From: a virus
IMG/VR virus record: IMGVR_UViG_3300020497_000007
Location: 1-28,066 of that record
DNA: 28,066 nt
Strand: one strand, 5' to 3'
The translations under genes were made by a program, and so were the position numbers. Below are positions 3,170 through 26,000 of the stretch, piece after piece; position 1 is the stretch's first letter; each line of letters opens with the position of its first letter. Below the pieces are notes generated by a model, which saw nothing but the letters and a program-made list of their open reading frames with translations, ran no database searches and was not told the DNA's origin.

Positions 3170-3173
3170 TTTT

Positions 3174-3197
3174 AAAAATATAAAAATATAAAAATAT
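3174..3197 (+). repeat. three tandem copies of AAAAATAT running into the uvsX start codon
   Basis: Three exact 8-base copies of AAAAATAT fill the gap between gp32 and uvsX, and the last copy provides the A and T of the ATG at 3196. The string ATATAAAAATATG here is identical to that at the 63-aa gene (1238-1250). It may act as an A-rich, unstructured ribosome entry region in a genome without Shine-Dalgarno sites. Confidence 0.6.
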
Positions 3198-4311: not shown

Positions 4312-4337
4312 TTATTTAACCATTTAACACTTTAAAA

Positions 4338-8262: not shown

Positions 8263-9828
8263 ATGCGAGTAATAAAAAGAAATGGGTCTAAGATTGATTT
8301 CAACCCAAATAAAATTTTAACTAGAATAAAAAAACAAGCGGAAGGGTTAAAAATAAATGCTGATGAAGTATTTCTTAAAGTTACTCAAGGTATTGCTGAT
8401 AATATGACAACCGATGAAGTTGATGATTTAATTTCAGTTGTGTCAGAATCATTAGCTATGAATCATCCAGACTATTCTAAGTTGGCCGCTAACATATCAA
8501 TTAGTAAATTACATAAAGAAACTGAAGATTCTTTTATGAAGGCTACTAAAAGATTATATAACGCTGGTTTATTAAATGATTTCTATTATAATAAAGTAAA
8601 AGAAAATATTGATCTGATTGAATCAGTAATTGATTATAAAAGAGATTATAGATTTGATTATTTTGGATGGTGTTCACTTAAAGATATCTACTTATTAAAA
8701 ATTGGTGATGAAATAACAGAAAGACCACAACACCTATACATTAGAGTAGCTTTAATGGTGACTAATAACCCTACTGATTTTAAAGAAAAGTATGAAGATT
8801 TAAGTTTACAAAGGGAATCTCCAGCTACGCCTATAAAAATTAATATTGGTACTAATATAGGACAAATTGCGTCATGTAATTTATCTATAGTTCCGGATGA
8901 CTCAACTGAGGGGTTATTAAGTATGTTAAATAGAATATCAGTATCATCATCTAAAGCTGAAGGTATTGGTTTAGCTATATCTAACATTCGTTCAAAGGAA
9001 AGTAATGTTGGACAATCAAATGGTAAAGCTGGTGGTATTTTAAAATATTTAAAAGTTGTAAATGAAGCTTTAAGATTTTGGAATCAAAGAGGTAAACGAC
9101 CTGGATCTTGCGCTGTTTATATTGAACCTTGGCATAAAGATGTATTTGATATTTTGGATATTAGAAAGAAAACTGGTGATGAAACACTTAGAGCACGAGA
9201 TTTATTTTCAGCGTTATGGATACCGGATAACTTTATGAGAGCTGTTGAATCAAATGGGGATTGGTATTTGTTTTGTCCTAATGACATTAAACAAGCTGGT
9301 TTAAAACCATTTTATGATATCTATGGTGAAGAATATGAGTTAGAATATAATAAGGCTGTTGAGATGGGTTTAGGTACTAAAATCAAAGCTCACGATTTGT
9401 GGTTAAGAATTATTGAATCACAAATTGAAAGTGGTATGCCTTATATGTGTTTTAAAGATCATGCGAATAATAAATCAAATCAAAAGAATTTTGGTGTTAT
9501 ACATTCAAGTAACCTATGTTGTTTACATAGTGACACATTAATTACGATTATGTATGGTAATGGTGAGATTAGAGAAGTAACTATGAAAAATGTTGTTGAA
9601 GAAATTAAAAAGGATAAAAATATAAAAGTTTTAAGTCAAGATAATATTTTTAGACCAATGTTGGCTGCTGCGAAAATGAAATCAAACGCTGAAATTATAG
9701 AAGTTAGTGATGATGAGTTAGGGGTAAAAATAGTTTGTACACCAGATCACCAAATATTAACAAAAAACAGAGGGTATGTTATGGCCGGTGAATTAAATGA
9801 AAATGATGAATTAATTATTAATAAATAA
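8263..9828 (+). CDS. nrdA: NrdA N-terminal fragment fused to the N-half of split intein 1
   Basis: Residues 1-419 are the N-terminal part of a class I ribonucleotide reductase large subunit, and residues 420-521 are an N-intein. The ATP-cone (about 1-90, MRVIKRNGSKIDF) is the allosteric activity site. Cys205 (IASCNLS) corresponds to the redox-active Cys225 of E. coli. The extein ends HSSNLC, where Asn417 and Cys419 match E. coli Asn437 and the thiyl-radical Cys439. From Cys420 the sequence is an intein: CLHSDTLITI (block A) and CTPDHQILTKNRGYV (block B). The ORF ends in TAA and one base later the next ORF starts with the C-intein. Alone the fragment cannot be an active reductase. The 21-base gap from nrdB suggests one operon. 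Confidence 0.93.
   Translation: MRVIKRNGSKIDFNPNKILTRIKKQAEGLKINADEVFLKVTQGIADNMTTDEVDDLISVVSESLAMNHPDYSKLAANISISKLHKETEDSFMKATKRLYNAGLLNDFYYNKVKENIDLIESVIDYKRDYRFDYFGWCSLKDIYLLKIGDEITERPQHLYIRVALMVTNNPTDFKEKYEDLSLQRESPATPIKINIGTNIGQIASCNLSIVPDDSTEGLLSMLNRISVSSSKAEGIGLAISNIRSKESNVGQSNGKAGGILKYLKVVNEALRFWNQRGKRPGSCAVYIEPWHKDVFDILDIRKKTGDETLRARDLFSALWIPDNFMRAVESNGDWYLFCPNDIKQAGLKPFYDIYGEEYELEYNKAVEMGLGTKIKAHDLWLRIIESQIESGMPYMCFKDHANNKSNQKNFGVIHSSNLCCLHSDTLITIMYGNGEIREVTMKNVVEEIKKDKNIKVLSQDNIFRPMLAAAKMKSNAEIIEVSDDELGVKIVCTPDHQILTKNRGYVMAGELNENDELIINK
9520..9825 (+). other. split intein 1, N-terminal half (IntN, 102 aa)
   Basis: The first residue is Cys420 (TGT at 9520), the splicing nucleophile. 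Block A is CLHSDTLI and block B is CTPDHQI with the TxxH catalytic pair. The segment ends INK at the stop codon, at the usual position where split inteins divide. No homing-endonuclease motif is present. By recollection the TKNRGYV segment resembles the metagenomic NrdJ-1 and NrdA-2 split inteins, which also sit near this site. Confidence 0.9.
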
Positions 9829-9829
9829 G

Positions 9830-9928
9830 ATGATAAAAATAAAAAAATTAGAAGAAAAAATTGATGTATATGATATACAAGTAGAAGAAACTAGTAATTT
9901 CTTTGCTAATAATATATTAGTACATAAT
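9830..9928 (+). other. split intein 1, C-terminal half (IntC, 33 aa)
   Basis: The 33 residues hold block F (VYDIQVEETSNFFANN) and block G (ILVHN). The terminal His-Asn pair is followed by extein Ser (+1), the second nucleophile. The ATG start gives an IntC of the standard ~35-residue size of natural split inteins. Confidence 0.92.
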
Positions 9929-10816
9929 TCCGAAATTATGGAGGTAACTGATAAAGAAACCACCGCCATCTGTACGCTAACGTCAATACCGGTTCAAAAA
10001 TTTGTCATAGATAATGAGTATGATTTTAATGAATTAGGTCGTGTTACACGATCAATAACAAAATCACTTAATATTGCGATAGATGTTAATGAATATTCAA
10101 CTAAAGAAGGTAGAAAAGGTGGTTTAGAACAAAGAGCTTTAGGTATTGGTATCCAAGGATTAGCTGACACTTTCGCTATGTTACGATTACCATTTGTATC
10201 TGAAGAAGCTAGATCATTAAATAAAAAAATATTTGAAACAATTTATTATAACGCTTTAAGACAATCTTGTGATTTAGCGAAAGAAACTGGATTAACTTAT
10301 GATTTTTATGAAGGATCTCCAATTTCAAAAGGTATTTTCCAATGGGAAATGTGGGGTGTTGATGAATCTGAATTGAGTGGTATGTTTGATTGGAAACAAT
10401 TAAGAAAAGATATTAAAAAATATGGTGTTAGAAACTCACTTGTCACGACCTGTCCGCCAACCGCAAGTTGTCAAGTTATTGATACTAGAATACATACTGA
10501 AAATGGTGTTAAATCATTTAAAGATTTACTAGTTGAAAATGGTGTTGATTATGTTAAATTAGAAGAATCTAATGAACAACAATGGGTTGAATTTAAAACA
10601 CCTATAAAAGTAAAAACTTATAATGGGTATGAAGATGTAAGTCAAATAAAATATAATGGTCATTCTGAAGTTTATAAAATTGAAATGGAAGATGGTTCTA
10701 TATTTGAAGCAACACCTAACCATAAATTTAGGATTAAAAGAGGTGATACTGAAATTTGGGTTAAAGTTGAGGATTTATTAACTACGGACGATATTATAAA
10801 TATTTTTGAAAAATAA
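9830..10816 (+). CDS. nrdA: middle NrdA fragment carrying C-half of split intein 1 and N-half of split intein 2
   Basis: The 328 residues have three parts. Residues 1-33 are the C-intein of split intein 1, ending ILVHN. Residues 34-213 are NrdA, starting SEIMEV and ending CPPTAS. Glu35 matches E. coli Glu441, and Cys48 (TAICTLTS) matches redox-active Cys462. Residues 214-328 are the N-intein of split intein 2 (CQVIDTRIHTENG...). The protein therefore must be spliced at both ends. The start ATG lies one base after the TAA of the preceding ORF and is shifted +1 relative to it. The extein segment (180 aa) begins and ends exactly where the flanking fragments leave off. Confidence 0.93.
   Translation: MIKIKKLEEKIDVYDIQVEETSNFFANNILVHNSEIMEVTDKETTAICTLTSIPVQKFVIDNEYDFNELGRVTRSITKSLNIAIDVNEYSTKEGRKGGLEQRALGIGIQGLADTFAMLRLPFVSEEARSLNKKIFETIYYNALRQSCDLAKETGLTYDFYEGSPISKGIFQWEMWGVDESELSGMFDWKQLRKDIKKYGVRNSLVTTCPPTASCQVIDTRIHTENGVKSFKDLLVENGVDYVKLEESNEQQWVEFKTPIKVKTYNGYEDVSQIKYNGHSEVYKIEMEDGSIFEATPNHKFRIKRGDTEIWVKVEDLLTTDDIINIFEK
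10469..10813 (+). other. split intein 2, N-terminal half (IntN, 115 aa)
   Basis: It begins with Cys (TGT at 10469) directly after extein PPTAS. Block A is CQVIDTRIHTENG and block B is EATPNHKFRI with the TxxH pair. A typical WVKVEDL...DDI segment near the end precedes the stop. Its sequence is clearly different from intein 1, so cross-reaction between the two should be low. No endonuclease is present. Confidence 0.9.
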
Positions 10817-10847
10817 AATAAGTAATCTAATAAAAACAAAAAATAAA

Positions 10848-10952
10848 ATGAAAATAAAAAGTATAATTAAAAACGGAGTTAAACCAACTTGGGATATTGA
10901 AGTACCAAATGTTCATCATTATATAATGGAAAATGGTTGTGTTAGTCATAAT
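10848..10952 (+). other. split intein 2, C-terminal half (IntC, 35 aa)
   Basis: It contains block F (TWDIEVPNVHHYIMENG) and ends CVSHN, with extein Ser as +1 residue (TCG at 10953). Length and motifs are those of a natural C-intein. Confidence 0.9.
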
Positions 10953-11465
10953 TCGGCCCGTGTCATAGGTTCTAATGAAGCTTTTGAACCGTTTACTTCT
11001 AATTTATATGTTCGTAAGGTAACTGGTGGTGAATTCGCTATGGTTAATAAACATTTGGTTAAAGATTTAGAATTAGAAGGGTTATGGAATAGGGACATTC
11101 TTAATGAATTGATAAAAAATGATGGTAGCGTTCAATCAATCCCAGTTATTAGTCAAGAAATGAAGGAAAGATATAAAACTGTTTGGGAGATATCACAAAA
11201 ATCTCTTATTGAAATGTCGGCCGAAAGAGCTCCATTCATTGATCAATCTCAAAGTCTTAACATATTTTTCGCCACACCAACGGTTGGTAAATTAACTACC
11301 TCACACACATTAGCTTGGAAGTTAGGTTTAAAAACTGGTCAATACTACCTAAGAAGTCAACCGGTAGAAATGAAAGGTAAACATTTAGCTATTGATATGG
11401 GTAAACAAATTAAACCTGAGAAACCTACTGATAGTCAATTTGAATGTTATGGTTGTAGTGCGTAA
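10848..11465 (+). CDS. nrdA: C-half of split intein 2 fused to the NrdA C-terminal fragment
   Basis: I start this gene at the ATG at 10848, 31 bases after the previous stop. A TTG at 10806 is also in frame but would add 14 low-complexity residues and overlap the upstream gene. Residues 1-35 are the C-intein (ending NGCVSHN) and residues 36-205 are the end of NrdA, starting SARVIGSNEAFEP, the usual continuation of the PTAS loop. Tyr166-Tyr167 (QYYLRSQP) correspond to E. coli Tyr730-Tyr731 of the radical-transfer path. The C-terminal CYGC (Cys200, Cys203) is the thioredoxin/glutaredoxin-reducible pair. The fragment completes a 769-residue NrdA. It is followed by a terminator. Confidence 0.92.
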   Translation: MKIKSIIKNGVKPTWDIEVPNVHHYIMENGCVSHNSARVIGSNEAFEPFTSNLYVRKVTGGEFAMVNKHLVKDLELEGLWNRDILNELIKNDGSVQSIPVISQEMKERYKTVWEISQKSLIEMSAERAPFIDQSQSLNIFFATPTVGKLTTSHTLAWKLGLKTGQYYLRSQPVEMKGKHLAIDMGKQIKPEKPTDSQFECYGCSA

Positions 11466-11531: not shown

Positions 11532-11559
11532 AAAAATATACAAATATTTTTTATTGTAT

Positions 11560-11570
11560 ATATTTATAGT
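11560..11570 (+). promoter_or_regulatory. ATATTTATA element before the baseplate unit (copy 3)
   Basis: ATATTTATAGT follows the terminator and ends one base before the ATG of gp25 at 11572. The core is identical to copies 1 and 2, but the spacing to ATG is so short that, if it were a -10 box, the mRNA would be leaderless or start inside the gene. Confidence 0.4.
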
Positions 11571-11571
11571 A

Positions 11572-11952
11572 ATGGCTAAACAGTTTATTAACATAAGATA
11601 CCCCTTTATAAATAGTCCGGAAGGATTTTTCTTAGATTTAACGACAACAACTATTGATGCGGTTAAATCTGATTTACAACATCTTTTATTAACTGAAAAG
11701 GGTGAGAGATTTTATTTACCAGATTTTGGAACAAATTTAAAAAGATTTTTATTTGATCCAAGTGACGAAAAAACATTGGCAGATATTGAAGATGACCTTA
11801 AAGTAACGGTTACTAAATATTTACCAGGATTAACTATAACCGGAGTAAAATTATACTCTGAAGATGATCAAAAAGGTGTCGCTGTTAGAGTTCATTTTAC
11901 CATTGGTGATGGTATTTTCTCTAGTAGTGATTTCATAGAAATTAACGTATAA
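11572..11952 (+). CDS. 25: gp25-like baseplate wedge protein
   Basis: The 126 residues compare with 132 in T4 gp25. The GPW/gp25 signature is present at residues 38-53 (LLLTEKGERFYLPDFG) and continues TNLKRFLFDP. gp25 is the small wedge protein that connects the baseplate to the first sheath ring of contractile tails. I chose the ATG at 11572 rather than an in-frame TTG at 11554, because the added residues would be encoded by the ATATTTATA element and the family starts close to this point. The next gene, gp6, begins one base after its stop, the conserved gp25-gp6 order. Confidence 0.93.
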   Translation: MAKQFINIRYPFINSPEGFFLDLTTTTIDAVKSDLQHLLLTEKGERFYLPDFGTNLKRFLFDPSDEKTLADIEDDLKVTVTKYLPGLTITGVKLYSEDDQKGVAVRVHFTIGDGIFSSSDFIEINV

Positions 11953-11953
11953 T

Positions 11954-13774
11954 ATGGCATATCAAACAAACTATTCAGCTAGAAATTTCGCTGACATAAG
12001 ATTAGAATTATTAAATTATGTAAAACAATATTATCCTGATATATTCAGTGATTTTAATGACGCGTCTGTGGGTACAATGTTACTTGAATTAAACGCGGCC
12101 ACAGCTGATATTTTATCGTATCATACTGATAGGATGTTTCAAGAAACTCAAATTGATTACGCTTATGAAAGAAGTTCATTACTTTCATTGGGGAGAACAT
12201 TAGGTGTTAAAATACCTAACACAAGACCCAGTGTTAGCGTGGTTAATTGGTCGGTAGTAGTGCCGGTTAATGGTGCTACATTTGATCTTGACTATTGTCC
12301 AATAATTAAAAGAGGTTCACAAGCTACTGGTGCTGGTAAAATATTTGAAGTTTTAAATGATATTGATTTTACATCAAGATATAATAATTTAGGTATACCT
12401 AATAGAACTATAGTACCTAATACTAATTCTAATGGTTCAATACAAAACTATACTATAGTTAAACAAGAAATTGTATTTAATGGTTATACTAAGGTTTTTA
12501 GTAAAGTATTAACTGAAGCTAATTCAGTACCATTCTTAGAAATTATACTACCAGAAGATGATGTCTTATCTGTTGAAAATTTAATAATATTACCTGGGAC
12601 TAATTATACTACTATACCAACATTATCTCAATTTTTAGATGTTAATAACGCTTGGTATGAGGTAGAGTCTTTAGCCGAAAATAAAATATTCATTGAAGAT
12701 ACAAATGTAACTACCATTACAAATGGTGTTAGAAAAGGTATTTGGAAAAATATTAGTAAAAAATTTATTAGAGAATACACTGATCAGGGTTTTTCTAAAT
12801 TAACATTTGGTTCTGGTTATAAAGATATTAGTTTTACTAGTGAGTTTGATGAAAATTGTAAATTTTTAGTAGAGAAAATTGGTGATTTTATTAATAATAC
12901 GGCTTTAGGTGAGATACCACCTTCTAATAGTACTATGTTTATTAGATATAGAGTTGGTGGTGGTGCGGACACTAATCTAGGTCCAAATACTATTACTGAA
13001 TTGGGTATTGTTGATATTATTGTTGATGGACCAGATAACGCTAAGAATAACGCGGTTAGACAATCATTAGAAGTTAATAATCCAATCCCAGCTACTGGTG
13101 GTGCTGATCAACCTGGTACTGAAGAATTAAGAGGATTAATAAAGTATAATTTTTCATCACAAAATAGATGTGTAACTATAAAAGATTATAAGTCAAGAAT
13201 AACTTTAATGCCGGGTAATTTTGGTGCTCCATTCAGAACTAATGTATGGGAAGAACAAAATAAAATTGTAGCCGCTATTATGACATTAGATGAAAATAGT
13301 AACTTAAGTAATATAACAAATACTATCTTAAATCAAAATATCTCAGAATATCTATCAGATTATAGAATGTTAAATGATTATATAGTGGTTAGACCAGCGA
13401 GGATTTTTAATTTAGGTTTTGATATTGATTTATTTGTTGATAAGAGTGTAACTAAATCAGAAATAATCGGTAATGTTATAGAAATTGTTAAGAATTATTT
13501 TGATATTTCAAAACAAGAAATGGCTCAAAATATTTATTTAGCTCAATTAGTTGAACAAATTAATAATGTAGCTGGAGTATTAAATGTAATTGATATTAAA
13601 GTATTTAATAAAGTTGGTGGTGGTTCTTATTCATTAAATGAAGTTAGTCAACCATATATTGATTCAACAACAAGACAGATTAATTTAATGGGATTATTTA
13701 CATTATTCGCTGATCCAGATAGTATGTTTGAAATAAAATATCCGGAGAAAGATATTAGAGTTAGTATACGATAA
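11954..13774 (+). CDS. 6: gp6-like (baseplate J family) baseplate wedge protein
   Basis: The protein has 606 residues (T4 gp6 660). The N-terminal region has the family pattern of a helix, then DASVGTMLLELNAATADILSYHTDR (about 37-60), followed by YERSSLLSLGRTLG. The middle is strand-rich with a VNWSVVVPVNGATF segment, and a second conserved zone around residues 370-430 contains the TEELRGLIKYNFSSQNRCVTIKDY sequence. gp6 forms the wedge ring that rearranges from hexagon to star when the tail contracts. It is directly coupled to gp25. No truncation is visible. Confidence 0.9.
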   Translation: MAYQTNYSARNFADIRLELLNYVKQYYPDIFSDFNDASVGTMLLELNAATADILSYHTDRMFQETQIDYAYERSSLLSLGRTLGVKIPNTRPSVSVVNWSVVVPVNGATFDLDYCPIIKRGSQATGAGKIFEVLNDIDFTSRYNNLGIPNRTIVPNTNSNGSIQNYTIVKQEIVFNGYTKVFSKVLTEANSVPFLEIILPEDDVLSVENLIILPGTNYTTIPTLSQFLDVNNAWYEVESLAENKIFIEDTNVTTITNGVRKGIWKNISKKFIREYTDQGFSKLTFGSGYKDISFTSEFDENCKFLVEKIGDFINNTALGEIPPSNSTMFIRYRVGGGADTNLGPNTITELGIVDIIVDGPDNAKNNAVRQSLEVNNPIPATGGADQPGTEELRGLIKYNFSSQNRCVTIKDYKSRITLMPGNFGAPFRTNVWEEQNKIVAAIMTLDENSNLSNITNTILNQNISEYLSDYRMLNDYIVVRPARIFNLGFDIDLFVDKSVTKSEIIGNVIEIVKNYFDISKQEMAQNIYLAQLVEQINNVAGVLNVIDIKVFNKVGGGSYSLNEVSQPYIDSTTRQINLMGLFTLFADPDSMFEIKYPEKDIRVSIR

Positions 13775-14252: not shown

Positions 14253-17200
14253 ATGTCTAAATCCATTAGGATAAATACAACACCTCTAGGGAATGATAAA
14301 CACTTAAAAGTAAAAATTGATCAAGATTTTGATTTTTTAGAGATTTTAAGTTTAAAAATAACCCAAACTGAAGCGTACACTAAGTATTGTTCGGATTATG
14401 GTGTTGTAGTTGGTAGAGTTGTAGTTAATAACGGATTTGGTATTCCAAACGCTAAAATTTCTATTTTCATCCCATTAGCGGAAGAAGATAAATCAAGACC
14501 AGAGATTAATGGGTTATATCCATTTGAAACTATTTACACTAAAGATTATAAGGGGATTAGATATAATTTATTAAGTAATGAACCAAGACCAGATGATGAA
14601 TGTCACGTTGCGGTAGGTACTTTCCCAGATAAACGACAAGTTTTAGATTGTGGTACAACTTTGGAAGTATTTGAAAAATATTATAAGTTTACTACTACTA
14701 CTAATAGTGCGGGTGATTATATGATATTCGGTGCTCCAGTTGGAGAACATACAATTCATATTGATGTTGATTTAAGTGATATAGGATTTATTAGTCAAAA
14801 ACCTTATGAATTAATTGGTCAAGGTTTTAGTAAAAATTTATTTGCGAGTAATAGTCAATTTAAAACAGGACAAAATTTAGATGTATTAAGTCAAATAAAA
14901 AGTAGAAATACTAGTGCGAGTGTAATTCCATTTTGGGGTGATTTAGAAGAATGTGAAGTTGGTATTACAAGAGTAGATTTTGATTTAAATTATGATATAA
15001 TACCCACAGCGATTTTTATTGGGAATATTTTTGGTGATAATGAAAAAAATAGTGTTAATAAAAGATGTAGACCTAGAAGAAAATTAGGAAATCTTTGTGA
15101 AACTGTTACCGGTGAAGGGACTATTGAAATGATTAGAAAAACACCGGAAGGACTTATAGAAAAGTTTTCGGTGGATGGTGATAATTTAATTAATGAAAAT
15201 GGTGTTTGGTGTTATCAAATACCAATGAACTTAGATAAGTTAGTTACTGATGAGTTTGGTAATTTAGTACCATCAGAAGATCCGGAAAAGGGTGTACCAA
15301 GTAACGCTAAAGTTAGATTTAGAGTTGCTATGAATGAAACTGGTGATACTGGTAGAATACGTTCTAGAGCTAAATTTTTAATACCGAATAGAGGTCTTGA
15401 TTATAATTTTGATGATTCAACACCAGATACTGAATTCGCTGATTTAAGGTGGAAAAAAGTGTATACTGTTAGACAATTTATTGCTCGGTATCAAAAATAT
15501 TGTGAGACAAAAGTTTGTGGAACTAAAAGATCTTTTATTGGTATAAAGGATGTTGATGATTGTGGTGATCATACACCATTCCCATACAATAGAATTGATA
15601 CTGATTTAAATCCGTTATATAGTATTATATGTTTAATCGTAACTATATTAATGACATTAATAGAATTAATTAATGTAAGTTTAATTAGATTACTTAACAT
15701 TGTTATAGGTGCTTTAAATGCTATACTTTGTTTTATTTGTAATATTATCTACGGATTAGGTCAATTTATTGACTCTATTGTTAGTGCCATTAATGGTCTT
15801 ATCCCTGGTAACGGACCATTAAGTTTTAATGTTTGTAATTTTTGTATTGGTACTGGTTGTTGTACTTGTGGAAGTATAATGAATTATATGTCATGTATTT
15901 CTATTAAGTGTGATGAAAAATCATTCGCACCAGGGTGTTATAAACCATCATCATGTTCTTTACCAAGTGGTTGTAGTATACCATCAGATGTAGATAAACT
16001 TGGATGGTGTACGGCTAATAGTGGTCAACCACCAGAAAACTATCCTGGCGATGGTGTTACTAATCAAATTGATTGTGGATCATATAACGCGAGTGATGCT
16101 CATGGGTGTTGTGGTCCCGCGGGAAGTGGTTTTATTCCATTCGCTGGCGCTATGGATTGTATTGAAATACAATTAGCGAGAGCTCTAAATGTTTTTAAAT
16201 TTGATTTTTATAATGATTGGATTAATGGTAGTCTTTACGCTTTTTTATTCAAATATAAAGTTAGAAGAAAAAAGAGTAAAAAAAGAACTGTAGAAAAGTT
16301 TTGTGAATATGATTGTCACGACACGTATGAAAGTGATACAGATTCACCGGAACATAAGTATAATAAGTGTAGAGATAATTTATTCTTAGTTGATACTTGT
16401 GTTGCTAACGATAATAACCCTATTAGTTTTAATAAGGTTGGTATAGATGAAGGTATTATAAAAGAACATAAAGATGAATTATATTATGCTGCGATGACAC
16501 ATGATACCGCCAACTTATTATACGCTACAGATATAACTTGTCTTGGTAGTGCGGTTAATTGTGATATTGATGGTAGACAAAAAATAGTTACTTATTTAGT
16601 TAACACTTCATATAAAATGCCACCAGATACAGCTGAATTAGATAGTAATAATGTTTTGGAAACTACCGCGATAGACCCATTATTATTATCTTTAAATTGT
16701 TTTAGGGTTAAAGTTGAAGATTATAATTGTAAAAATATTAAAAGAATTTGTGAAATTGGTATTGGTTTGGATGAAAATAGAGTTGATGATACACCACCGG
16801 GGGTAGCCGCTAATTGTAATATTGAAATATTTGATAGTCCAATTACTATCGCCACAACGGAAGAATTAGAAGGTGAATTTTTAAGAAATGAATTAGGTTC
16901 TTGTGCTACTGGAATTTATCAGTTTGATTGTACACAAGAACAAACAGATTACAATATATTTAGAGGGTATAATAATCCAAACCCATTGGGGCTACCAACA
17001 GAAAATTCATATTTTTATTATTTTGGGATTAATCCTGGTAAGAGTGCGTTGGATTGTGCTATGGCCTCATATTTTGTCCCTTGTAAGCGAGATAAACAAA
17101 ATCAAATCCCAGCTCAAATTACAACTATAGATAATACTTGTAATAATCAAAACGCTGGTTCTGTTACCGTTAATCTATTAGGTGGTAAAGAACCATTTAC

Positions 17201-18737
17201 GTACACATTTGCTGATACTAATTCTAATTCAATATTAGGAAGTCCTTCATCACCAACAACATCTAATTTTATATCATTCACTAATCTATTTGCTGGTTCA
17301 TATCAATTAAGTGTGACCGATAAATATGGTGATAATTCATTATACAATATCAATATCAATGAACCATTAAGTTTAATTGCTGTACCAACAAGTGTACAAA
17401 ATACAACATCACCTATTTTAAGTAATGGTAGTATAGATATTAATGTATTTGGTGGTAATCCACCTTACACATATCTTTGGTCGCCAGGTGGACAAACAAC
17501 ACAAGATTTGTCTGGAATTGGTGTTGGTGTTTACAATGTAACCATTAAAGATACTGCGACACCTACTTGTAGTCAACAGACTATAACATTAACTGGGTTA
17601 ACTATAGCATCACCTTCTGCGTTGAATTTTAATTATACAACAGTACCATCTAGTTGTTATAATCAAGGTGATGCACAAATAGTGTTATCAAATATTACCG
17701 GTGGAACTTCTCCATATACAATATTTATTAATGGAACATTAACTACAAGTAGTATTGGTAATTTAACTGGTAATACTAGTGGTATACCATATACAATAAC
17801 AGTTTATGACTCAACATCAGCACAAACTGTGACACAAATTGTTACTTTAACATCACCACCTTTATTAACAGCAACAGCAGTACCTGGTACTATTTTATGT
17901 AATGGTTGTACCACTAATATTACTGTTAACCCTAATGGTGGAACATCACCATATACTTACAAATGGAATGATTCAAATAATCAAACTACACAAACAGCCC
18001 TTAATTTATCTGAAGGTACTTATGTGTGTATGATAAAAGACGCTAAAGATTGTGAATATAAAGTTACAACTACAATCACAGCACCACCAAAATTAGATAT
18101 AAATAATGTATTTGTAACTAATGCGGTTTGCTTTAATGGCACAGCTCAAGTTAGTTTTAATCTTGCTGGCGGTACTGGTAATTTAAGTTATGCTATATAC
18201 AATGCCGCATTAAATACAACTTTAACACCGACTTGTAATAATTGTAATACACCAACAAGTACACCATGTACTTCATCTTGTGTATCATCACCTGGTACAT
18301 TAGCGCAACCAATAACTAGTAATGTAACACCTGGGACTTATACATTTAATATACCGCATATTATGATTAGTAAACAATATTATATGGTGGTAACTGATAC
18401 TAATGGTTGTAAAACTTGTACAACATTTATTGTAACATCACCACCACAATTATCTGGTTTATTTACATATAATTTAACTAATAGTATACCGTTTAAACAA
18501 TATTCATTAAATATTACTGGTATAGGTGGGACTTTAACTACATCGTATACTATTAATTTATATAATAGTGTTTTAGGTAATACTAATTGTAATCTTAGTA
18601 CAACTCCAATAACACCTAATAGTTTTACACCAACAACTAAAGATTACATAAATTTAGGTAGTGGTGAATATATAATACAAATAAAAGATGATAATAATTG
18701 TCTATGGTGTAGTTCAACGTTCACTTTACCCTCATAA
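14253..18737 (+). CDS. large structural/adhesin protein with hydrophobic core and SprB-type repeats, 1494 aa
   Basis: Several zones can be seen. Residues about 50-180 contain a carboxypeptidase-regulatory-like beta-sandwich (GRVVVNNGFGIPNAKISIFIPL ... TNSAGDYMIFGAPVGEHTI). Residues 455-517 are an unbroken hydrophobic stretch, long enough for two or three membrane helices. Residues 528-620 are Cys-rich (14 Cys in about 93 residues, including CC and CxxC patterns). Around 660-690 there is a basic KVRRKKSKKR tract. From about 956 to the end there are five or six SprB-like repeats. SprB repeats are known from flavobacterial gliding adhesins. In a phage, this suggests host-surface binding by a tail or baseplate fibre, with the hydrophobic part perhaps used for membrane contact; both are inference. 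It overlaps the next gene by one base. Confidence 0.85.
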   Translation: MSKSIRINTTPLGNDKHLKVKIDQDFDFLEILSLKITQTEAYTKYCSDYGVVVGRVVVNNGFGIPNAKISIFIPLAEEDKSRPEINGLYPFETIYTKDYKGIRYNLLSNEPRPDDECHVAVGTFPDKRQVLDCGTTLEVFEKYYKFTTTTNSAGDYMIFGAPVGEHTIHIDVDLSDIGFISQKPYELIGQGFSKNLFASNSQFKTGQNLDVLSQIKSRNTSASVIPFWGDLEECEVGITRVDFDLNYDIIPTAIFIGNIFGDNEKNSVNKRCRPRRKLGNLCETVTGEGTIEMIRKTPEGLIEKFSVDGDNLINENGVWCYQIPMNLDKLVTDEFGNLVPSEDPEKGVPSNAKVRFRVAMNETGDTGRIRSRAKFLIPNRGLDYNFDDSTPDTEFADLRWKKVYTVRQFIARYQKYCETKVCGTKRSFIGIKDVDDCGDHTPFPYNRIDTDLNPLYSIICLIVTILMTLIELINVSLIRLLNIVIGALNAILCFICNIIYGLGQFIDSIVSAINGLIPGNGPLSFNVCNFCIGTGCCTCGSIMNYMSCISIKCDEKSFAPGCYKPSSCSLPSGCSIPSDVDKLGWCTANSGQPPENYPGDGVTNQIDCGSYNASDAHGCCGPAGSGFIPFAGAMDCIEIQLARALNVFKFDFYNDWINGSLYAFLFKYKVRRKKSKKRTVEKFCEYDCHDTYESDTDSPEHKYNKCRDNLFLVDTCVANDNNPISFNKVGIDEGIIKEHKDELYYAAMTHDTANLLYATDITCLGSAVNCDIDGRQKIVTYLVNTSYKMPPDTAELDSNNVLETTAIDPLLLSLNCFRVKVEDYNCKNIKRICEIGIGLDENRVDDTPPGVAANCNIEIFDSPITIATTEELEGEFLRNELGSCATGIYQFDCTQEQTDYNIFRGYNNPNPLGLPTENSYFYYFGINPGKSALDCAMASYFVPCKRDKQNQIPAQITTIDNTCNNQNAGSVTVNLLGGKEPFTYTFADTNSNSILGSPSSPTTSNFISFTNLFAGSYQLSVTDKYGDNSLYNININEPLSLIAVPTSVQNTTSPILSNGSIDINVFGGNPPYTYLWSPGGQTTQDLSGIGVGVYNVTIKDTATPTCSQQTITLTGLTIASPSALNFNYTTVPSSCYNQGDAQIVLSNITGGTSPYTIFINGTLTTSSIGNLTGNTSGIPYTITVYDSTSAQTVTQIVTLTSPPLLTATAVPGTILCNGCTTNITVNPNGGTSPYTYKWNDSNNQTTQTALNLSEGTYVCMIKDAKDCEYKVTTTITAPPKLDINNVFVTNAVCFNGTAQVSFNLAGGTGNLSYAIYNAALNTTLTPTCNNCNTPTSTPCTSSCVSSPGTLAQPITSNVTPGTYTFNIPHIMISKQYYMVVTDTNGCKTCTTFIVTSPPQLSGLFTYNLTNSIPFKQYSLNITGIGGTLTTSYTINLYNSVLGNTNCNLSTTPITPNSFTPTTKDYINLGSGEYIIQIKDDNNCLWCSSTFTLPS
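17118..18734 (+). repeat. SprB-type repeat array in the 1494-aa protein (5-6 degenerate units)
   Basis: Units of about 75-115 residues share the pattern 'C.nG...v...GG..PYtY.w......l..G.Y.v.v.D...C....'. Examples are VFGGNPPYTYLWSPGGQTT...GVYNVTIKD, NPNGGTSPYTYKWNDSNNQ and NITGGTSPYTIFING. Units begin near residues 956, 1043, 1118, 1208, 1284 and 1403 (approximate). The first four are clear, and the last two are divergent with insertions rich in Cys, Thr and Pro. Confidence 0.8.
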
Positions 18738-20320
18738 TGAATACTGAAAGATTATATAAAATATTAGATTCACAGATTTCAAAAAAGTCTGTGAATAAAG
18801 ATTTTAATATTAACATTGGGTTAAGTAATACTAATAAACCATTACCACTCAATCAAATTGATAGTGTTGTTGATCAATCCCAAGTCTTTGAAGATGAAAG
18901 AAATGTTAGTAATTTATATAGATTTTTAGGTTCAATTAGACCATTAATATCAAATGTTTTATTTGATATCACAGGTCCGGATTCATTACAAACTATTAAT
19001 AGTATTATATCTTTATCAGATGAACAATTTTCACAAGTGAATCAACTATTAATTGAACAAAATGGTTGGTTTGGTTATTTCGTTCAAAATGGTAATAATT
19101 TATGTGAATTCGTTGATTTATACCCTAAAAAAAAAGATTTATTAATTGTTAAAGATGGTGTAAAAGATAACTGGTCATTAAAGATAACTTACCCTTATAC
19201 CGGTTTATCTAATACAGTTTATTTTAACGCTAATAATGATCCATTACGACCAATTTATTTAAGTGATGGTATCGCGATTAGTTCTGTTTATCAAACAAAA
19301 GTTGGTGATGTTGATATGACTGGGTTTAAAATACCAATTTCACATGGTTTAAATGTGGGTGATGAGGTTAAGATTACCGGAGGAACTTTATATGATGGTA
19401 TACATACAGTGATTTTATTGGGTGATAATGTTAATAATGAGTTTATAATTAACACTTTTATTACTGGTTCAACTAGTGGTATTACATTTACAAACGCGTC
19501 AATGAAAAGAGTGGTTAATAATGTAGAATCAAAATATTATGCGAGATACTTTAGTGCGATCACACAAACTAATGAAATAGATTTTTATCCAACAGCGTTT
19601 AGTACAACCATTTTTGGTGATGAAGTCATAGGTTTCAATACCAATAATAATATAGATATATCATTATATAGGGATTATTTAGATAGACCTATTACCGAAG
19701 TATATTTAACGATGGTTAAAACAAAAACATCCTCAAATTATTGGGGTAATTTAAAAGTTGGATTAGAAACAAAAGTTGATTTAGTTAATTATGACATAAA
19801 ACAAATAAATGATCAACCCTACCCATTACCTGATTTAGGTATAATTAGTTCGACTAATAATGTTTTCTTCGGTGATATTATTGATTACAACGATGAAAAT
19901 ATTAGTGAGATAATATTAGAAGGGGCTAGACATAGATTCAATTCTAATAATAGAAATACTAACTCATATTATGAGGGGTATTATTATAAACCACATTATA
20001 AAATAGTTACACAATATTATTCAAGTCAAGTGGAATATAGTGATCCTAATATACCAACTATTAATATACCAGATTACGCTTTATTTTCTAATGGTAGATA
20101 TAGATGGAGAGATATATTAACAAAGGGATACTTTGATGAAACTAATAGAGGTGTTAATTATCCATTTTTAAATGGGGTTACATATATCCACGAGAATTAT
20201 TTTTTAAGTTTAAAGCGTCAAGATCCTACACTTTCGTATGATCATGGAACTTCATCAATTAATGGTGCGACTTGTTCAAGTACACAACAATTTACAATAA
20301 ACGATAACGATGTTTGTTAA
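18737..20320 (+). CDS. hypothetical structural protein, 527 aa
   Basis: The start ATG overlaps the previous stop (TAATG). The N-terminal ~70 residues are helical and charged. The middle is strand-rich with a segment around residues 190-255 (GFKIPISHGLNVGDEVKITGG...DGIHTVILLGDN) that looks like a small beta-barrel with a Gly-rich turn. Near the C-terminus the segment GRYRWRDILTKGYFD ... NYPFLNGVTYIHENYFLSLKRQDP is dense in aromatics and looks conserved. No enzymatic motif or membrane segment. I do not recognise a named family; the context (between virion genes downstream of gp25/gp6) makes a baseplate or tail-fibre part the likeliest role. Confidence 0.78.
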   Translation: MNTERLYKILDSQISKKSVNKDFNINIGLSNTNKPLPLNQIDSVVDQSQVFEDERNVSNLYRFLGSIRPLISNVLFDITGPDSLQTINSIISLSDEQFSQVNQLLIEQNGWFGYFVQNGNNLCEFVDLYPKKKDLLIVKDGVKDNWSLKITYPYTGLSNTVYFNANNDPLRPIYLSDGIAISSVYQTKVGDVDMTGFKIPISHGLNVGDEVKITGGTLYDGIHTVILLGDNVNNEFIINTFITGSTSGITFTNASMKRVVNNVESKYYARYFSAITQTNEIDFYPTAFSTTIFGDEVIGFNTNNNIDISLYRDYLDRPITEVYLTMVKTKTSSNYWGNLKVGLETKVDLVNYDIKQINDQPYPLPDLGIISSTNNVFFGDIIDYNDENISEIILEGARHRFNSNNRNTNSYYEGYYYKPHYKIVTQYYSSQVEYSDPNIPTINIPDYALFSNGRYRWRDILTKGYFDETNRGVNYPFLNGVTYIHENYFLSLKRQDPTLSYDHGTSSINGATCSSTQQFTINDNDVC

Positions 20321-21167
20321 TAGGTATAGAATATTAGCCGGTAGTTTACCGGATACGAGTGGTACGACTATGGTAGTACCATTTTCATTAGATTTTTTTC
20401 CGGTGGATAATTCTGAATTAATCCAAACTAATTTCGTTGATATGGAGACGGAAAAAGCGATTAACCCTATCATTGATTATGAAAAATCAAGATTTTTACC
20501 ATTTGTTAGTGGGGGTACACAAATTAGTGAAATTAAATATAAATTATTTAATGGACCAGGTTCTCCACTATATTACTCTGATTTAGGGATAACAGATGAT
20601 GACGTTAAATTTAGAAGAAATAGATATTTAAACACTTTTTTAAAGTTATCATTTTATGATTCTGATGAGGTAACAAATAGTAACTTCTTATTCTCAATTG
20701 ACCACTTTAGTCAATTAGGGGATGATCAAGTTGATTTAACTGGATGTCCACCAGCTAGTAGTAGTTGTACTGGACCTATTAATGTTAATTATGGTAAACC
20801 AAAAGTAGTAACTTCAATGCCAGTATCTTATTTAAGTAGTGATCCAATTTCATTACCAAAAAAAATGGCTGAAGGATATTATATTTATTGGTTATTAAAA
20901 GATGTAATAAATAAACCAAAAGATATTTATGTTAGGGCGACTTTGAATAACGCTGTAACTGGTAAAATTACCCAATTTTATGGTGTTTTAGATTTGTACC
21001 CATTAGAATACGACTCATCTATGTTTAAGAAAAGAAATATTAAATGTAAAATTTTTAAAGACCCAGTAGATGGGATTTTTAAATATAATATTGATGACAC
21101 TGATAGATCAATATCTATTAACCAATTATTAACAACAATAAATCTTTATAAATTAATTGTTAAATAA
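20310..21167 (+). CDS. hypothetical structural protein, 285 aa
   Basis: The gene overlaps the previous one by 11 bases and starts with ATG in another frame. The protein is strand-rich and soluble-looking. It has a short Cys-containing loop (LTGCPPASSSCTGP, about residues 144-157) and a conserved-looking C-terminal part (MAEGYYIYWLLKDVINKPKDIYVRATLNN). There is no domain I can name. Its tight coupling to neighbours suggests that its product is needed in fixed ratio with them in the baseplate or fibre. Confidence 0.75.
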   Translation: MFVNRYRILAGSLPDTSGTTMVVPFSLDFFPVDNSELIQTNFVDMETEKAINPIIDYEKSRFLPFVSGGTQISEIKYKLFNGPGSPLYYSDLGITDDDVKFRRNRYLNTFLKLSFYDSDEVTNSNFLFSIDHFSQLGDDQVDLTGCPPASSSCTGPINVNYGKPKVVTSMPVSYLSSDPISLPKKMAEGYYIYWLLKDVINKPKDIYVRATLNNAVTGKITQFYGVLDLYPLEYDSSMFKKRNIKCKIFKDPVDGIFKYNIDDTDRSISINQLLTTINLYKLIVK

Positions 21168-22093
21168 TGGAAATAATAAATAGGATAGTACCTTTAGAAG
21201 ATTTAATTAGTAGAAAATCACCATTAAATTTGGATGGTAAAACTATTTCATTGGGTGGTAATAATTGTATTGTTATTCAAACTAAAGATATTATTTTAGA
21301 AAACGCCATTGATATTAGTTTTAATTGGGGTGAAATTATAGCTGAATCTTTTAGTATTAACATTTTTTTAACTCAAAACATTGATGATATTGGTATTTAT
21401 AAAGATATTGATAGTGTTGATGAAACACCTGATTATAGTATATTAGAGGGTTATTATAATTATTATTTAACTGGTCTAACTTGGACAACCCCTTTACCAC
21501 ATGATGTAGTATTTACAGGACCCTACACAATTGATCAAACTTTATTATATCGATTAAGAGGTCAAACAGCCGTTGACCATTATTTTAGTGGTGGTACAGT
21601 GACAGGGTTAACTAGTAGTTTAATAGATACGGTTAAAACATATAAAAAAGCTACCCCATATCAAGTTGGGACTAATCTTAACACAGAACCTACACAATAC
21701 TTTACTGGTATATTATCTTTAACAACCGGTAGTACTAGTTATGTTTTGGACGCGTCAATTACAGATATTTTTAATACTGGTATTCGTTATGTAGATGATA
21801 ATACCAAAAGAACTGTGTATGATGATACATTTAACATTGATATTATTATAAATAAAACTACATTTGAATATAGTGCTCTTGGGTGGGATAGTTCAAATAC
21901 TTCACTTTCGGCCTTAACAAAAGAAGAGTTAGATTTAGGAATAGTTTTTCCTCACAAAATATATAATGATGTATTTATAGATAGGAGTGAAATATCGGTA
22001 GAAGAAACTCAAATGAAGTTATCTGAAATTGATACATTAGCTCAATTAATAAGATATGGGAATAAATTTTATAACATTAAAACACAAGATTAA
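21167..22093 (+). CDS. hypothetical structural protein, 308 aa
   Basis: ATG overlaps the upstream stop by one base (TAATG). The protein is beta-rich, with many Thr, Ile, Asp and Tyr, and Gly turns (FTGPYTIDQTLLYRLRGQ; FSGGTVTGLTSS). It has no signal peptide or membrane span. The C-terminus is a charged helix (SEISVEETQMKLSEIDTLAQLI). Unrecognised; probably virion-associated from its place in the cluster. Confidence 0.75.
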   Translation: MEIINRIVPLEDLISRKSPLNLDGKTISLGGNNCIVIQTKDIILENAIDISFNWGEIIAESFSINIFLTQNIDDIGIYKDIDSVDETPDYSILEGYYNYYLTGLTWTTPLPHDVVFTGPYTIDQTLLYRLRGQTAVDHYFSGGTVTGLTSSLIDTVKTYKKATPYQVGTNLNTEPTQYFTGILSLTTGSTSYVLDASITDIFNTGIRYVDDNTKRTVYDDTFNIDIIINKTTFEYSALGWDSSNTSLSALTKEELDLGIVFPHKIYNDVFIDRSEISVEETQMKLSEIDTLAQLIRYGNKFYNIKTQD

Positions 22094-22096
22094 GTA

Positions 22097-23008
22097 ATGG
22101 CAACAGGCGTATATGGAACAATAAGACCAACAGATGTATCACCAAATGATATGGAAATTTACTATCATTATAGTCCATCTAGATCTACAACTGGTAATGT
22201 GGATTTAATTAAAATTAGTGACCCTAATGAAATTATTAAGAAAGTTGATGATCCTAGTAACCCTGGACAAATTTTTGGTGGGATGTATACACTTACATTA
22301 CCAACAACTATTTTTAATTTAAAGGGGATTTATAGTATTATTATTAGACCAAAACAAATTAAGACTACTATAATGGATTGTGGAATTTTATCCGCGTTTC
22401 CAGATATAAAAGGTATTGTTCTTGATTCTAGTACAATTTTACCGGAAGATATTAGTAAGTTTGAAAACCAAGGTTTAGTTGGATTTAGGGTAGAGTACTT
22501 ATCAACGAATCCTACCGCTAATGAGAAGAAAGTTCAAAATGTATTTAGAATTGTTACATCAAATAACAAATGTGAACCAGTTTTAGGTAATCAGAATAAT
22601 ACATCACAAAAATCAACTACATATAGATTTAACGATAATTCAACAACCGTATTTTGTACATTAACACCTAGCTCAGCTCCAAATGTAAAACCAAACGCTT
22701 TACCATTTATTGGTGTTCCAGGTCAAAAAGTTATTATAACTAATACTTTTTTCAATCCAGTTATGATTGAAATTGAGATGGTTGAAAATGATTTTGATAC
22801 ATTAGCTAATGGGTTATTTGGTAATCAAACTAAATCAGACGCTGATGGTGTTTATACCATTTACAATAATAGTAATGAAATTTATAAACAATATAATCTT
22901 TTTGAAATTAAAGATGAATTCGGTAAACCACTTTATGAAGTTAGAGAGGAGAGAACTAATATTGATTTCACAAAAGACTTTAATCAAATTATTACCGGTG
23001 TTCAATAA
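22097..23008 (+). CDS. hypothetical structural protein, 303 aa
   Basis: The gene starts three bases after the previous stop. The protein is soluble and beta-rich. It begins with a short YGTIRPTDVSPNDMEIYYHYSPSR-type opening and includes an FNLKGIYSIIIRPKQIKTTI strand pair and a C-terminal charged segment (YNLFEIKDEFGKPLYEVREERT). There are three scattered Cys but no clear metal site. No named family; a baseplate or fibre-associated role is inferred from position. It overlaps the following large gene by one base. Confidence 0.75.
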   Translation: MATGVYGTIRPTDVSPNDMEIYYHYSPSRSTTGNVDLIKISDPNEIIKKVDDPSNPGQIFGGMYTLTLPTTIFNLKGIYSIIIRPKQIKTTIMDCGILSAFPDIKGIVLDSSTILPEDISKFENQGLVGFRVEYLSTNPTANEKKVQNVFRIVTSNNKCEPVLGNQNNTSQKSTTYRFNDNSTTVFCTLTPSSAPNVKPNALPFIGVPGQKVIITNTFFNPVMIEIEMVENDFDTLANGLFGNQTKSDADGVYTIYNNSNEIYKQYNLFEIKDEFGKPLYEVREERTNIDFTKDFNQIITGVQ

Positions 23009-26000
23009 TGGCGACAAAATATAAAGTAATTGGGAATAATTTTAATGAATCGTTAGTTGGATTACAATTCGCAGCTGAAAATGGAACACCCTTGTTTACC
23101 ATAGGTAATTTTCAGTTAGAAACAACACTTACTGAAAAAGAGAATAAAACTTATAATATAGGTGAGGCTTCTGATTATTATACTTTAACTGATTTAGGTG
23201 AAACAACTCAGGAAGATAATACATTAAGAAAAAATAAGACAAGATTAAATTTAAACCCAGATTATACAAATCCTAAAAGTTATTCGTATTTTGGTTCTAT
23301 TAAAGAATATTTTAGGGTTAATGTTGAAGGTATTATACAACAATGGCCAGCGTCAATTTATGTTGACAAAGTTTTTAATAATACAACCGGTAACACCGTA
23401 GAAAATTATACTTATAATCCAATATTAAAAAAATCTAATTTTAAAGTTAATAATAATTACTTTAATAATACCTTTGATATTAAATATACTAGTCAATATA
23501 CTACTAGTAGTAATCTTGATAATAAGTTAAGAAATTTAAATGTTGAATATGGTAGATATACAATTTTTTATGAAGGTATAGAATACCCTATTACAAATTT
23601 TACTGGATCAACATTATTCTCAAATGATTATGTTTATTTTGAGGTTGATGGGAATCCATTTCCATTAGTTACAGGAACAACATTGTCGAGTAATTATCAT
23701 ATCAAACCTAATAGTGTTGAAGTAGAAACTTTCTTTTCATCATTATCAGATTTATCTTATGAATTATTAAATAGGTATGTAGTACCGGTGAATACAATTA
23801 AGTTTACTTACATTAGTGAATCAACCGGTGGACCATTTGACGTTGTTGTTAATAGGGAATACACTTGGCCAGTAGTTGATGGTTATAATATTGACATAAC
23901 CACAACTTTATTTGATACCTATTTAACATCAATTTATGAGTTTTGTGATTATTTTGATGAGAATGACACTAACATTATGAATAGAATGTTGGTAGCTGAT
24001 TCTATTAATAAGTTAAATACTATTAGAAGAGGTGATGGTAGTGAAGATGAGAATGACGCTGAAAAGGTATCTAAATTAATTAATATCTACGCTAGAGAAT
24101 TTGATGAAGTAAAAAAATATATGGATGGGATTTCTACTATTAGAAATGTCACTTATAATAAAAACGCTAATACACCGGATAGTTTAGTTAAAGATGTGGC
24201 TAAAACATTTGGTTGGGAATTATTAACACCAATGTCAGATGTTAATTTAATATCAAGTTTTATTCCAACTAAATCTGTATACTCTGGTTATACTATAAAT
24301 TATTCAAAATATGATGCTGAAGTAGAATTTTGGAGAAGACTAATTATGAATACCACCCACTTATGGAAAAGTAAGGGTAGTAGAAAAGCGATAGAATTTT
24401 TATTTCAATATATTGGATCACCAGAACAGTTAGTTAGTTTTAATGAATATGTCTATGTCGCTAAAAAACCACTTAATGTTGAATTATTTAAAGTAATTAT
24501 AAAACAACTTACAGGTACTGATGATATTAGTATATATAATTTAGATGAAGAAGGTTTCCCTAAAATATTACCAGAAACTCCATACAATTATTACCAATCA
24601 AATGGTTTATGGTATAGAGAGACTAGTGGTAATAACGCGGGTATAGATATATTAGATGGTAATAATCCACATACTGGTCCGTATGACGCGGGTAAAAATT
24701 ATTTAAACCAATTTAGGTCATTAATCGGATCATTTAGTTCTTATACACAAAATAATGGTTCTACAATTAGAATCACTAATGAGTATATTGAATTTAGTAA
24801 TTTATTTAAAAACTATTCCAATGGATTAATTAATGATTATTCTGGACAAGTTTATTTAGAAGATTATAATGTGGATGGGAAACCAAATTTATGTTTTAGT
24901 GTTAGTGGTACAGTAATTACTGACCCTGACCCTCAGTATGTTTTAGGTATATGTGGTTGTCCAATTGGTGTTAGTGATCACGCTTTAATGTTAGGTTTCA
25001 AAAAAGAAACTACTTTAAAACCTTGTGTGGTACAAAGTACTGGTGAAACTGTATCAATGGGTAGATGTCAATTTGAATATCAAACAATAACTAATGAACC
25101 ACCAATTATATTATTTTCTAGTACAACTAACTCATCGGTATCATTAGTGGCGAGGGAATGTTGTACATCAACAGTGATACCATTAAAGGGTAATGTTCAA
25201 ACATCACCACCAACATGGATTAGTGTTGGGGAGGGTTTGGGTTATTGTTATTGGGATAAAACTTGTGGCGAATTAACTATATACGCTGTTGATGATGATA
25301 ATAAAATTATTTTTATTAATGGTAATGGTATTATTGGTACTACTAGTGCTGAGTTACAACAAAATGAAGGTGGAATTTTTAATTGTTGTAGTTATTTTGG
25401 TGGTACTTATGACTCAAAATCTGATACTTGTAATTTAAGTATAGTAACAACTACTACTGATAGTACTACCGGTGCGACATGTCAATTAAACATTATAAAA
25501 GATATTAATGATGATATAATTTTAAACACTGATGGCACAGTTTCTTTTACTGATGGTCAAGGTGGTATCGTAGCTGGTAATTTAGAATGTTGTAGATACA
25601 ATAGTACAAATATAACACCACTAACTTTTTGTGGTGGAAATTGTTATTGGAGTAATCCATCAAAAGATTGTGATTACTATAATGATATTAAAGTTACTCT
25701 CGGTGTTGACGGGTCTGATGGTATTTATATACTATCTGGTTCAAATGAAAATTGTTATTTTCAAGTTGAATTTGATATGTTAATAAATTTTGATTGTACA
25801 AATTTATTAAATTGTATTGGTAATAATAGTATATTGGAAAGTTTAAGTGCGTTTACGATTGACGCTACCGTGGAGTCTGCCACTGGGACTACCCCAACCA
25901 CATTACAAGTATTTCCAGCTTATCAGTTCAATATAGATAATAAACCAACCGGTATTTATTTTACTGGACGAGAAAGTAATTGTAATAGTTTAAATAATCA

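Follow-up and report, generated by a model that had tools for sequence, protein, structure and literature searches.

Adhesive strings of immunoglobulin-like (Ig-like) domains on phages are already known from Hoc, pb10 and the whiskers. A chain of Ig-like domains is also present in GhpA, the grappling-hook adhesin of the bacterium Aureispira sp. CCB-QB1 (PDB 9flp, 9flu, 9flw and others), a cellular protein of 5898 residues that forms multimeric hooks at the surface of the cell. In T4 Hoc a conserved anchor is combined with variable Ig-like domains (PMC10385173). SprB, the gliding adhesin of Flavobacterium johnsoniae, depends for its export on a C-terminal domain (CTD) of TIGR04131 type (PMC5682007), and phages of Cellulophaga and related Flavobacteria have been proposed to use SprB and RemA-type adhesins as receptors (PMC13288928). 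Here we consider an open reading frame (ORF) at 14253-18737 in a stretch of 28,066 nucleotides of viral DNA (the window), which is IMG/VR record IMGVR_UViG_3300020497_000007 from position 1 to 28,066. The ORF encodes a conserved scaffold followed by an arm of SprB-like units. What is new is a string of Bacteroidota surface-adhesin type whose scaffold is uncharacterised and widespread, with relatives on at least 592 contigs, yet undetected in 50,697 named phage records. The scaffold is a marker for a big group of uncultured phages, and the arm is a concrete candidate for how such phages attach.

SprB-like units in the arm

An initial annotation, made from the sequence alone, had placed five or six SprB-type repeats at 17118-18734, in what it took for a phage virion protein of the tail region, and had proposed a profile search, a structure prediction and a phylogeny against host repeats as checks. 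The profile search bears out the repeats. The SprB family (PF13573), whose curated cut-off is 28 bits, is matched by the whole protein with 66.1 bits (E 2.1e-18) and by the isolated arm with 75.8 bits (E 2e-21). There are five matches, at 17121-17207, 17421-17492, 17634-17735, 17895-17981 and 18111-18209, two of which individually exceed 28 bits, and no Pfam family besides SprB scores above cut-off in the window protein, the next being Y_Y_Y with 23 bits. By score, by tandem copies and by the lack of a better family, the protein thus belongs to the SprB repeat family at the repeat level. When a 76-column profile of the full-length unit is used, which started from a SprB array of host type and took in host and phage proteins by iteration, six tandem units are found in residues 963-1493, the last two of them degenerate (Table 1).

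The units share with SprB the tandem pattern C.G..G.i.v.GG..PYtY.w...i..L..G.Y.v.v.D..gC. Unlike SprB, the window protein is far shorter, with its six units, is fused to a phage scaffold, and has neither a signal peptide nor a CTD of the type IX secretion system (T9SS). Its N-terminus, MSKSIRINTTPLGND / MSKSIRINTTPLGNDKHLKVKIDQDFDF, is without a hydrophobic core when read directly, no dedicated predictor having been used, and Pfam finds no T9SS CTD (TIGR04131/CHU_C) in the protein. CHU_C is also missing from 17 of 18 scaffold-bearing virus records, including one with an identical copy of the protein (G001), while the match in the eighteenth (G032) belongs to another gene; nor was it found in the SprB-armed relatives searched.

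A 642-kb record labelled 'uncultured phage' (LR756502.1) encodes a secreted-looking SprB-array protein of 1670 amino acids (aa) with signal peptide and CHU_C (L174:6885-11897), near topoisomerase, rhomboid and glutamate-synthase-like genes. Either the phage carries unusual cargo, or the record is not of phage origin throughout. Because signal peptide and CHU_C fit an ordinary secreted adhesin of Bacteroidota type, the record was dropped as a phage relative, and its SprB protein was used only as a host-type comparison.

The structure model of the arm (predicted local distance difference test, pLDDT, 79; predicted template modelling score, pTM, 0.44) is a chain of successive beta-sandwiches, of which units 1 to 4 are locally well predicted, while the pTM makes the relative placement of the domains uncertain. 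In a Foldseek search of the PDB, the three top matches of the arm are segments of GhpA (E 3e-14), and GhpA is also its best VIA match, with a Z of 11.0 and a root-mean-square deviation of 6.3 over 292 residues. GhpA is therefore the closest solved fold to the six-unit arm, at about 14-19% identity; the shared fold says nothing on function. When the PDB is searched with the sequence profile of the arm, the matches include GhpA, though weakly (E 7.5e-4), besides Ig domains of titin and, from phages, decoration proteins and a neck-whisker protein.

An Ig-like string on a conserved anchor is also the build of T4 Hoc, T5 pb10 and fibritin, to which the window protein would be comparable if it is placed on the virion as its context suggests. 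Unlike pb10 and fibritin, it has neither pb10_N nor Fibritin_C in Pfam, both of which are present in the controls. Its gene adjoins baseplate wedge genes, unlike those of Hoc/pb10/fibritin-type proteins, and whereas Ig_3 outscores SprB in the pb10 and fibritin controls, SprB is the sole family over cut-off here.

Table 1. Positions in the window of the ORF, its parts and the neighbouring genes
Feature	Position	Strand	Remarks
Whole ORF	14253-18737	+	1494 aa; conserved scaffold and SprB-like arm
Scaffold	14253-17087	+	residues 1-945, end just past YYFGINPGKSALD..FVPC motif; alignment A3
Carboxypeptidase-regulatory/transthyretin-like beta-sandwich	14394-15002	+	residues 48-250; PF13620 in relatives; fold match
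Long, very hydrophobic helix	15612-15800	+	residues 454-516 (63 residues); structure model
SprB-like unit 1	17139-17393	+	residues 963-1047; 54 bits (unit profile)
SprB-like unit 2	17421-17642	+	residues 1057-1130; 55 bits; best PF13573 match of the window
SprB-like unit 3	17655-17882	+	residues 1135-1210; 41 bits (unit profile)
SprB-like unit 4	17898-18110	+	residues 1216-1286; 67 bits (unit profile)
SprB-like unit 5	18129-18455	+	residues 1293-1401; 21 bits; degenerate, carries insertion
SprB-like unit 6	18504-18731	+	residues 1418-1493; 23 bits; degenerate, runs to stop codon
gp25-like baseplate wedge protein	11554-11952	+	PF04965, 47.5 bits; upstream in 98/107 relatives
gp6/baseplate J-like wedge protein	11954-13774	+	phrog_219 and phrog_6; upstream in 104/107 relatives
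133-aa protein with hydrophobic segment	13825-14226	+	directly before scaffold gene; upstream in 94/107 relatives
Five conserved downstream operon genes	18737-28065	+	starts 18737, 20310, 21167, 22097, 23008; downstream in 44-48 of 50 relatives

The arm as a variable, inherited module

In the family to which the window protein belongs, the tail varies downstream of a conserved YFG..GKTALDK...FF..C motif. Among 128 complete members, 52 have at least two SprB-like units, 25 have one weak unit and 51 have none; several stop exactly at the end of the scaffold, and others bear different tails. From the fact that the arm can be present, replaced or absent follows that it is modular. When 53 tails are compared with Pfam, SprB is found in 27, BiPBP_C in 4, Y_Y_Y in 4, Por_Secre_tail in 3 and BspA-type leucine-rich repeats in 1, and 19 of the same 53 match the PHROG annotation 'Hoc-like head decoration'. 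Armed, other-armed and armless members form a natural series for probing the role of the arm.

The distribution of the arm can be followed on a tree of the scaffold, built from the first 500 residues so that the tail is excluded. On this tree the SprB state changes 5 times, compared with a mean of 35.1 when the states are shuffled. The window protein pairs with its nearest relative (L035, 62% identity) with support 99, and the armless L017, L098 and L127 are placed among armed members, which reads as loss of the arm. When units are compared across the family, the best match of a unit is the unit at the same position in another member in 98 of 109 cases (shuffled mean 34, maximum 58). In all of 325 pairs the arm is less alike than the scaffold, with median identities of 26% and 46%, respectively. 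Clade-wide presence together with same-position matching implies that the arm is old and vertically inherited, and it is a fast-diverging, dispensable module that is sometimes lost. It may have originated a single time, within the SprB clade, or may predate that clade and have degenerated in the long-tailed sister clade.

The initial annotation had suggested, as one of two readings, that the arm was captured from a host adhesin. This is possible, since of 118 genomes from the phylum of a Cytophagales bin 27 contain SprB repeats, compared with a single genome, below cut-off, among 119 from the phylum of a clostridial bin, but capture would have been ancient, because the arm is clade-wide and its units match best those at the same position in other phages and not host units. 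Some window units are 54-58% identical to host units over 43-52 residues. In the proposed phylogeny of host and phage units the two are interleaved, and with 80 columns, and 8 of 118 branches well supported, the tree is too short to give a direction of transfer. Recent capture from a host was rejected on the strength of the same-position matches and the clade-wide distribution.

SprB-type units are not confined to the scaffold protein. In another clade, the armless members L165 and L172 carry seven-unit SprB arrays as separate ORFs directly after the homologue of the window gene at 23008, one of them with an extra two-unit SprB ORF, and in L123 an armed scaffold is accompanied by a second operon protein that ends in one SprB unit. 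It follows that such units have come to lie at more than one point in this operon. Stand-alone SprB ORFs of seven or two units in the tail operon of armless members are at L209:13384-15519, L210:8777-11668 and L210:13250-14767.

The long-tailed clade (e.g., L049, L058 and L070) has tails of up to about 1900 aa. Families matched in the set of tails include Listeria-Bacteroides repeats, BACON, BspA-type leucine-rich repeats and Por_Secre_tail, which is a sorting domain of T9SS type, here in a phage protein.

The scaffold and its operon

The scaffold has a mean column identity of 34% (alignment A3), and its model reaches a pLDDT of 82 and a pTM of 0.80. PF13620 matches 45 of 47 relatives at E values up to 0.1, with the window protein itself below the cut-off, and the corresponding residues 48-250 resemble PDB entries with a VIA-align Z of up to 7.7, a resemblance at fold level only. 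The hydrophobic stretch is kept in the family: the maximum Kyte-Doolittle mean over 19 residues exceeds 1.6 in 126 of 128 relatives. The 63-residue hydrophobic helix and the small membrane-type protein encoded upstream are unusual for a protein of a baseplate operon. When the PDB was searched with the scaffold there was no match by sequence and no significant chain by fold, where single-domain resemblances only were seen; this is not proof of a new fold. In one relative (L118:995-4487) the scaffold is spread over two overlapping ORFs, 995-2824 and 2805-4487, as the result of frameshifting, gene splitting or misassembly.

The ORF is the second gene past gp6, and the order gp25, gp6, small membrane-type protein, scaffold and five more genes is strict across relatives (downstream counts in Table 1 refer to 50 loci with enough flank). 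This strict order in a tail operon makes it likely that the product is a structural protein of the tail or baseplate region. The initial annotation was thus right about the tail region as far as position goes, with gp25 and gp6 just upstream, and the same operon context suggests that the protein is part of the virion.

Distribution and host

The contigs with a scaffold relative are from IMG/VR; the largest is 413 kb and some exceed 350 kb. In BFVD there is one clear relative of the scaffold, a full-length match in Myoviridae sp. ctPuP5 (A0A8S5LA66, E 2e-80), whose entry states no function. The named phage records are those of INPHARED, in which tblastn with the scaffold of two family members and with the next gene gave no match, so that no cultured host could be inferred. 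The name 'SprB repeat [uncultured Caudovirales phage]' is already in UniProt (A0A6J5LD72), again in an entry that states no function, and an open-access literature search, which is weak evidence, found no paper tying SprB repeats to phage virions.

The repeats had also been thought to point to the host group. A Bacteroidota host is likely, but on evidence other than the SprB score. PF13573 also exceeds its cut-off in coliphage Gostya9, where it matches the pb10-like protein (46.7 bits), and in the fibritins of Cronobacter phage Banach (45.8 bits) and Citrobacter phage KKP_3664 (50.1 bits). The reservation, made at the outset, that the repeats might be equally common in phages of unrelated hosts therefore applies by half: these enterobacterial phage proteins pass with 46-50 bits, and in each of them Ig_3 scores higher. 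The SprB score alone consequently identifies no host, gliding or otherwise; a gliding host is not indicated, and the general caution is that a SprB Pfam match in a phage does not by itself point to one. A Bacteroidota host is instead suggested by two other lines. A recognisable Shine-Dalgarno sequence precedes none of the 22 window genes and, across the family, no more than 14 of 144 scaffold genes, where scarcity of such sequences is a known trait of Bacteroidota, and relatives have been binned in Bacteroidales, Paludibacteraceae and Cytophagales genomes.

Function of the arm

We consider it somewhat more probable than not that the protein is a tail-anchored scaffold with a swappable, adhesive six-unit arm for reversible attachment. 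The ORF would then encode a structural protein of the baseplate or tail region of a large myovirus-like phage, in which residues 1-945, with the transthyretin-like beta-sandwich, the hydrophobic helix and further beta domains, would anchor the protein in the tail. In residues 960-1494, six Ig-like domains of SprB/GhpA type would form a swappable arm that points outward. Such an arm would adhere reversibly, probably to glycans or surface proteins, so that the phage stays close or attached to its Bacteroidota host, or to a surface associated with the host, while its dedicated receptor-binding proteins make contact.

This proposal draws directly on repeat identity, domain order, operon context, wide conservation, the optional and replaceable nature of the arm and its faster divergence; presence in the virion, outward orientation, adhesion and the ligand we infer. 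That the arm is adhesive is supported by the tails of relatives that match surface-protein families, by the GhpA-like folds and by the profile matches to decoration and neck-whisker proteins, and by analogy with Hoc a conserved tail anchor with an outer, variable Ig-like string would be the most likely arrangement. Several points weigh against the proposal. The placement in the virion is derived from operon context, the hydrophobic helix and the membrane-type protein upstream are not what one expects of a peripheral fibre and would also suit a membrane-inserted protein, and Ig arrays can serve as mere spacers. Furthermore, binned relatives are found also in bins labelled Clostridiales, Mycoplasmatota and Wolfebacteria, which may be mis-binned.

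A substantial chance, of about one third in our estimation, goes to generic environmental adhesion or spacing of Hoc/pb10/whisker type, where the arm would attach to particles, mucus or polysaccharide, or would only lengthen another part, without any particular link to host adhesins. The 'Hoc-like head decoration' matches among the tails, the resemblance by profile to decoration proteins and a neck-whisker protein of phages in the PDB, the cross-matching of enterobacterial phage Ig proteins with SprB and the anchor-plus-variable-domains build of T4 Hoc (PMC10385173) speak for such a role. The best family for the window arm is, however, SprB and not Ig_2, Ig_3 or I-set, unlike the case of the enterobacterial proteins, and the nearest solved folds come from a Bacteroidota adhesin.

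If the arm were instead a captured host adhesin of SprB type that acts as the primary receptor-binding device, it could perhaps make homotypic contact with SprB/RemA-type adhesins of the host; such docking is conceivable by analogy with the proposed role of these adhesins as receptors. Among the sampled cellular genomes SprB repeats are indeed a Bacteroidota trait, and the identity between some window units and host units fits this idea. Yet the arm is old and clade-wide, its units match best those at the same position in other phages, the unit tree does not resolve direction, and at least three near relatives in the same clade are armless, from which follows that the arm is not indispensable for infection. 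Capture for this purpose is accordingly unlikely. An even bolder extension, which we think improbable, is that a very large group of big uncultured Bacteroidota phages makes the periphery of the baseplate from one conserved scaffold, with a membrane-type helix and interchangeable host-style outer arms (SprB/GhpA arrays, leucine-rich repeats and other Ig types), and that arms of SprB type dock on SprB-type adhesin fibres of the host, the gliding adhesin being the docking site.

Little weight is also given to a role in the membrane of the infected cell, where the protein would act, for instance, as a surface adhesin or in superinfection exclusion and would not be part of the virion. The long hydrophobic helix of the model, its conservation among members and the membrane-type gene that directly precedes the scaffold gene would be accounted for, whereas the embedding of the gene in a strictly ordered baseplate and tail operon, the lack of a signal peptide and the replacement of the arm by other long tails in related phages would not. 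Finally, the suggestion of the initial annotation that the arm mimics the cargo of the gliding machinery, so that T9SS would handle a phage protein, has only the repeat resemblance in its favour and is rejected as very improbable for want of a signal peptide, of a CHU_C/type-B CTD and of a Por_Secre_tail domain in the window protein, of CHU_C in the SprB-armed relatives searched, and because the same scaffold occurs in phages without a SprB arm.

Other features of the window

The window has a GC content of 29% and is a fragment of a large phage. Its genes include those for a single-stranded DNA-binding protein, a UvsX/RecA-like recombinase, an exonuclease, a DnaB-like helicase and both subunits of ribonucleotide reductase, followed by gp25 and gp6; a tRNA search of the window found none. 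The last ORF (23008-28065), which is open at the window end, has C-terminal repeats that, read directly, resemble a YVTN-type beta-propeller and are possibly a receptor-binding part. The gene for the large subunit of ribonucleotide reductase (8263-11465) is split over three ORFs, apparently by two split inteins: the ORF at 8263 ends in an intein N-half, the ORF at 9830 starts with a C-half (PF14890, profile 124-155) and seemingly ends in another N-half, and the ORF at 10806 starts with a stretch resembling a C-half. Metagenomes are known to contain phage ribonucleotide reductase genes with split inteins.

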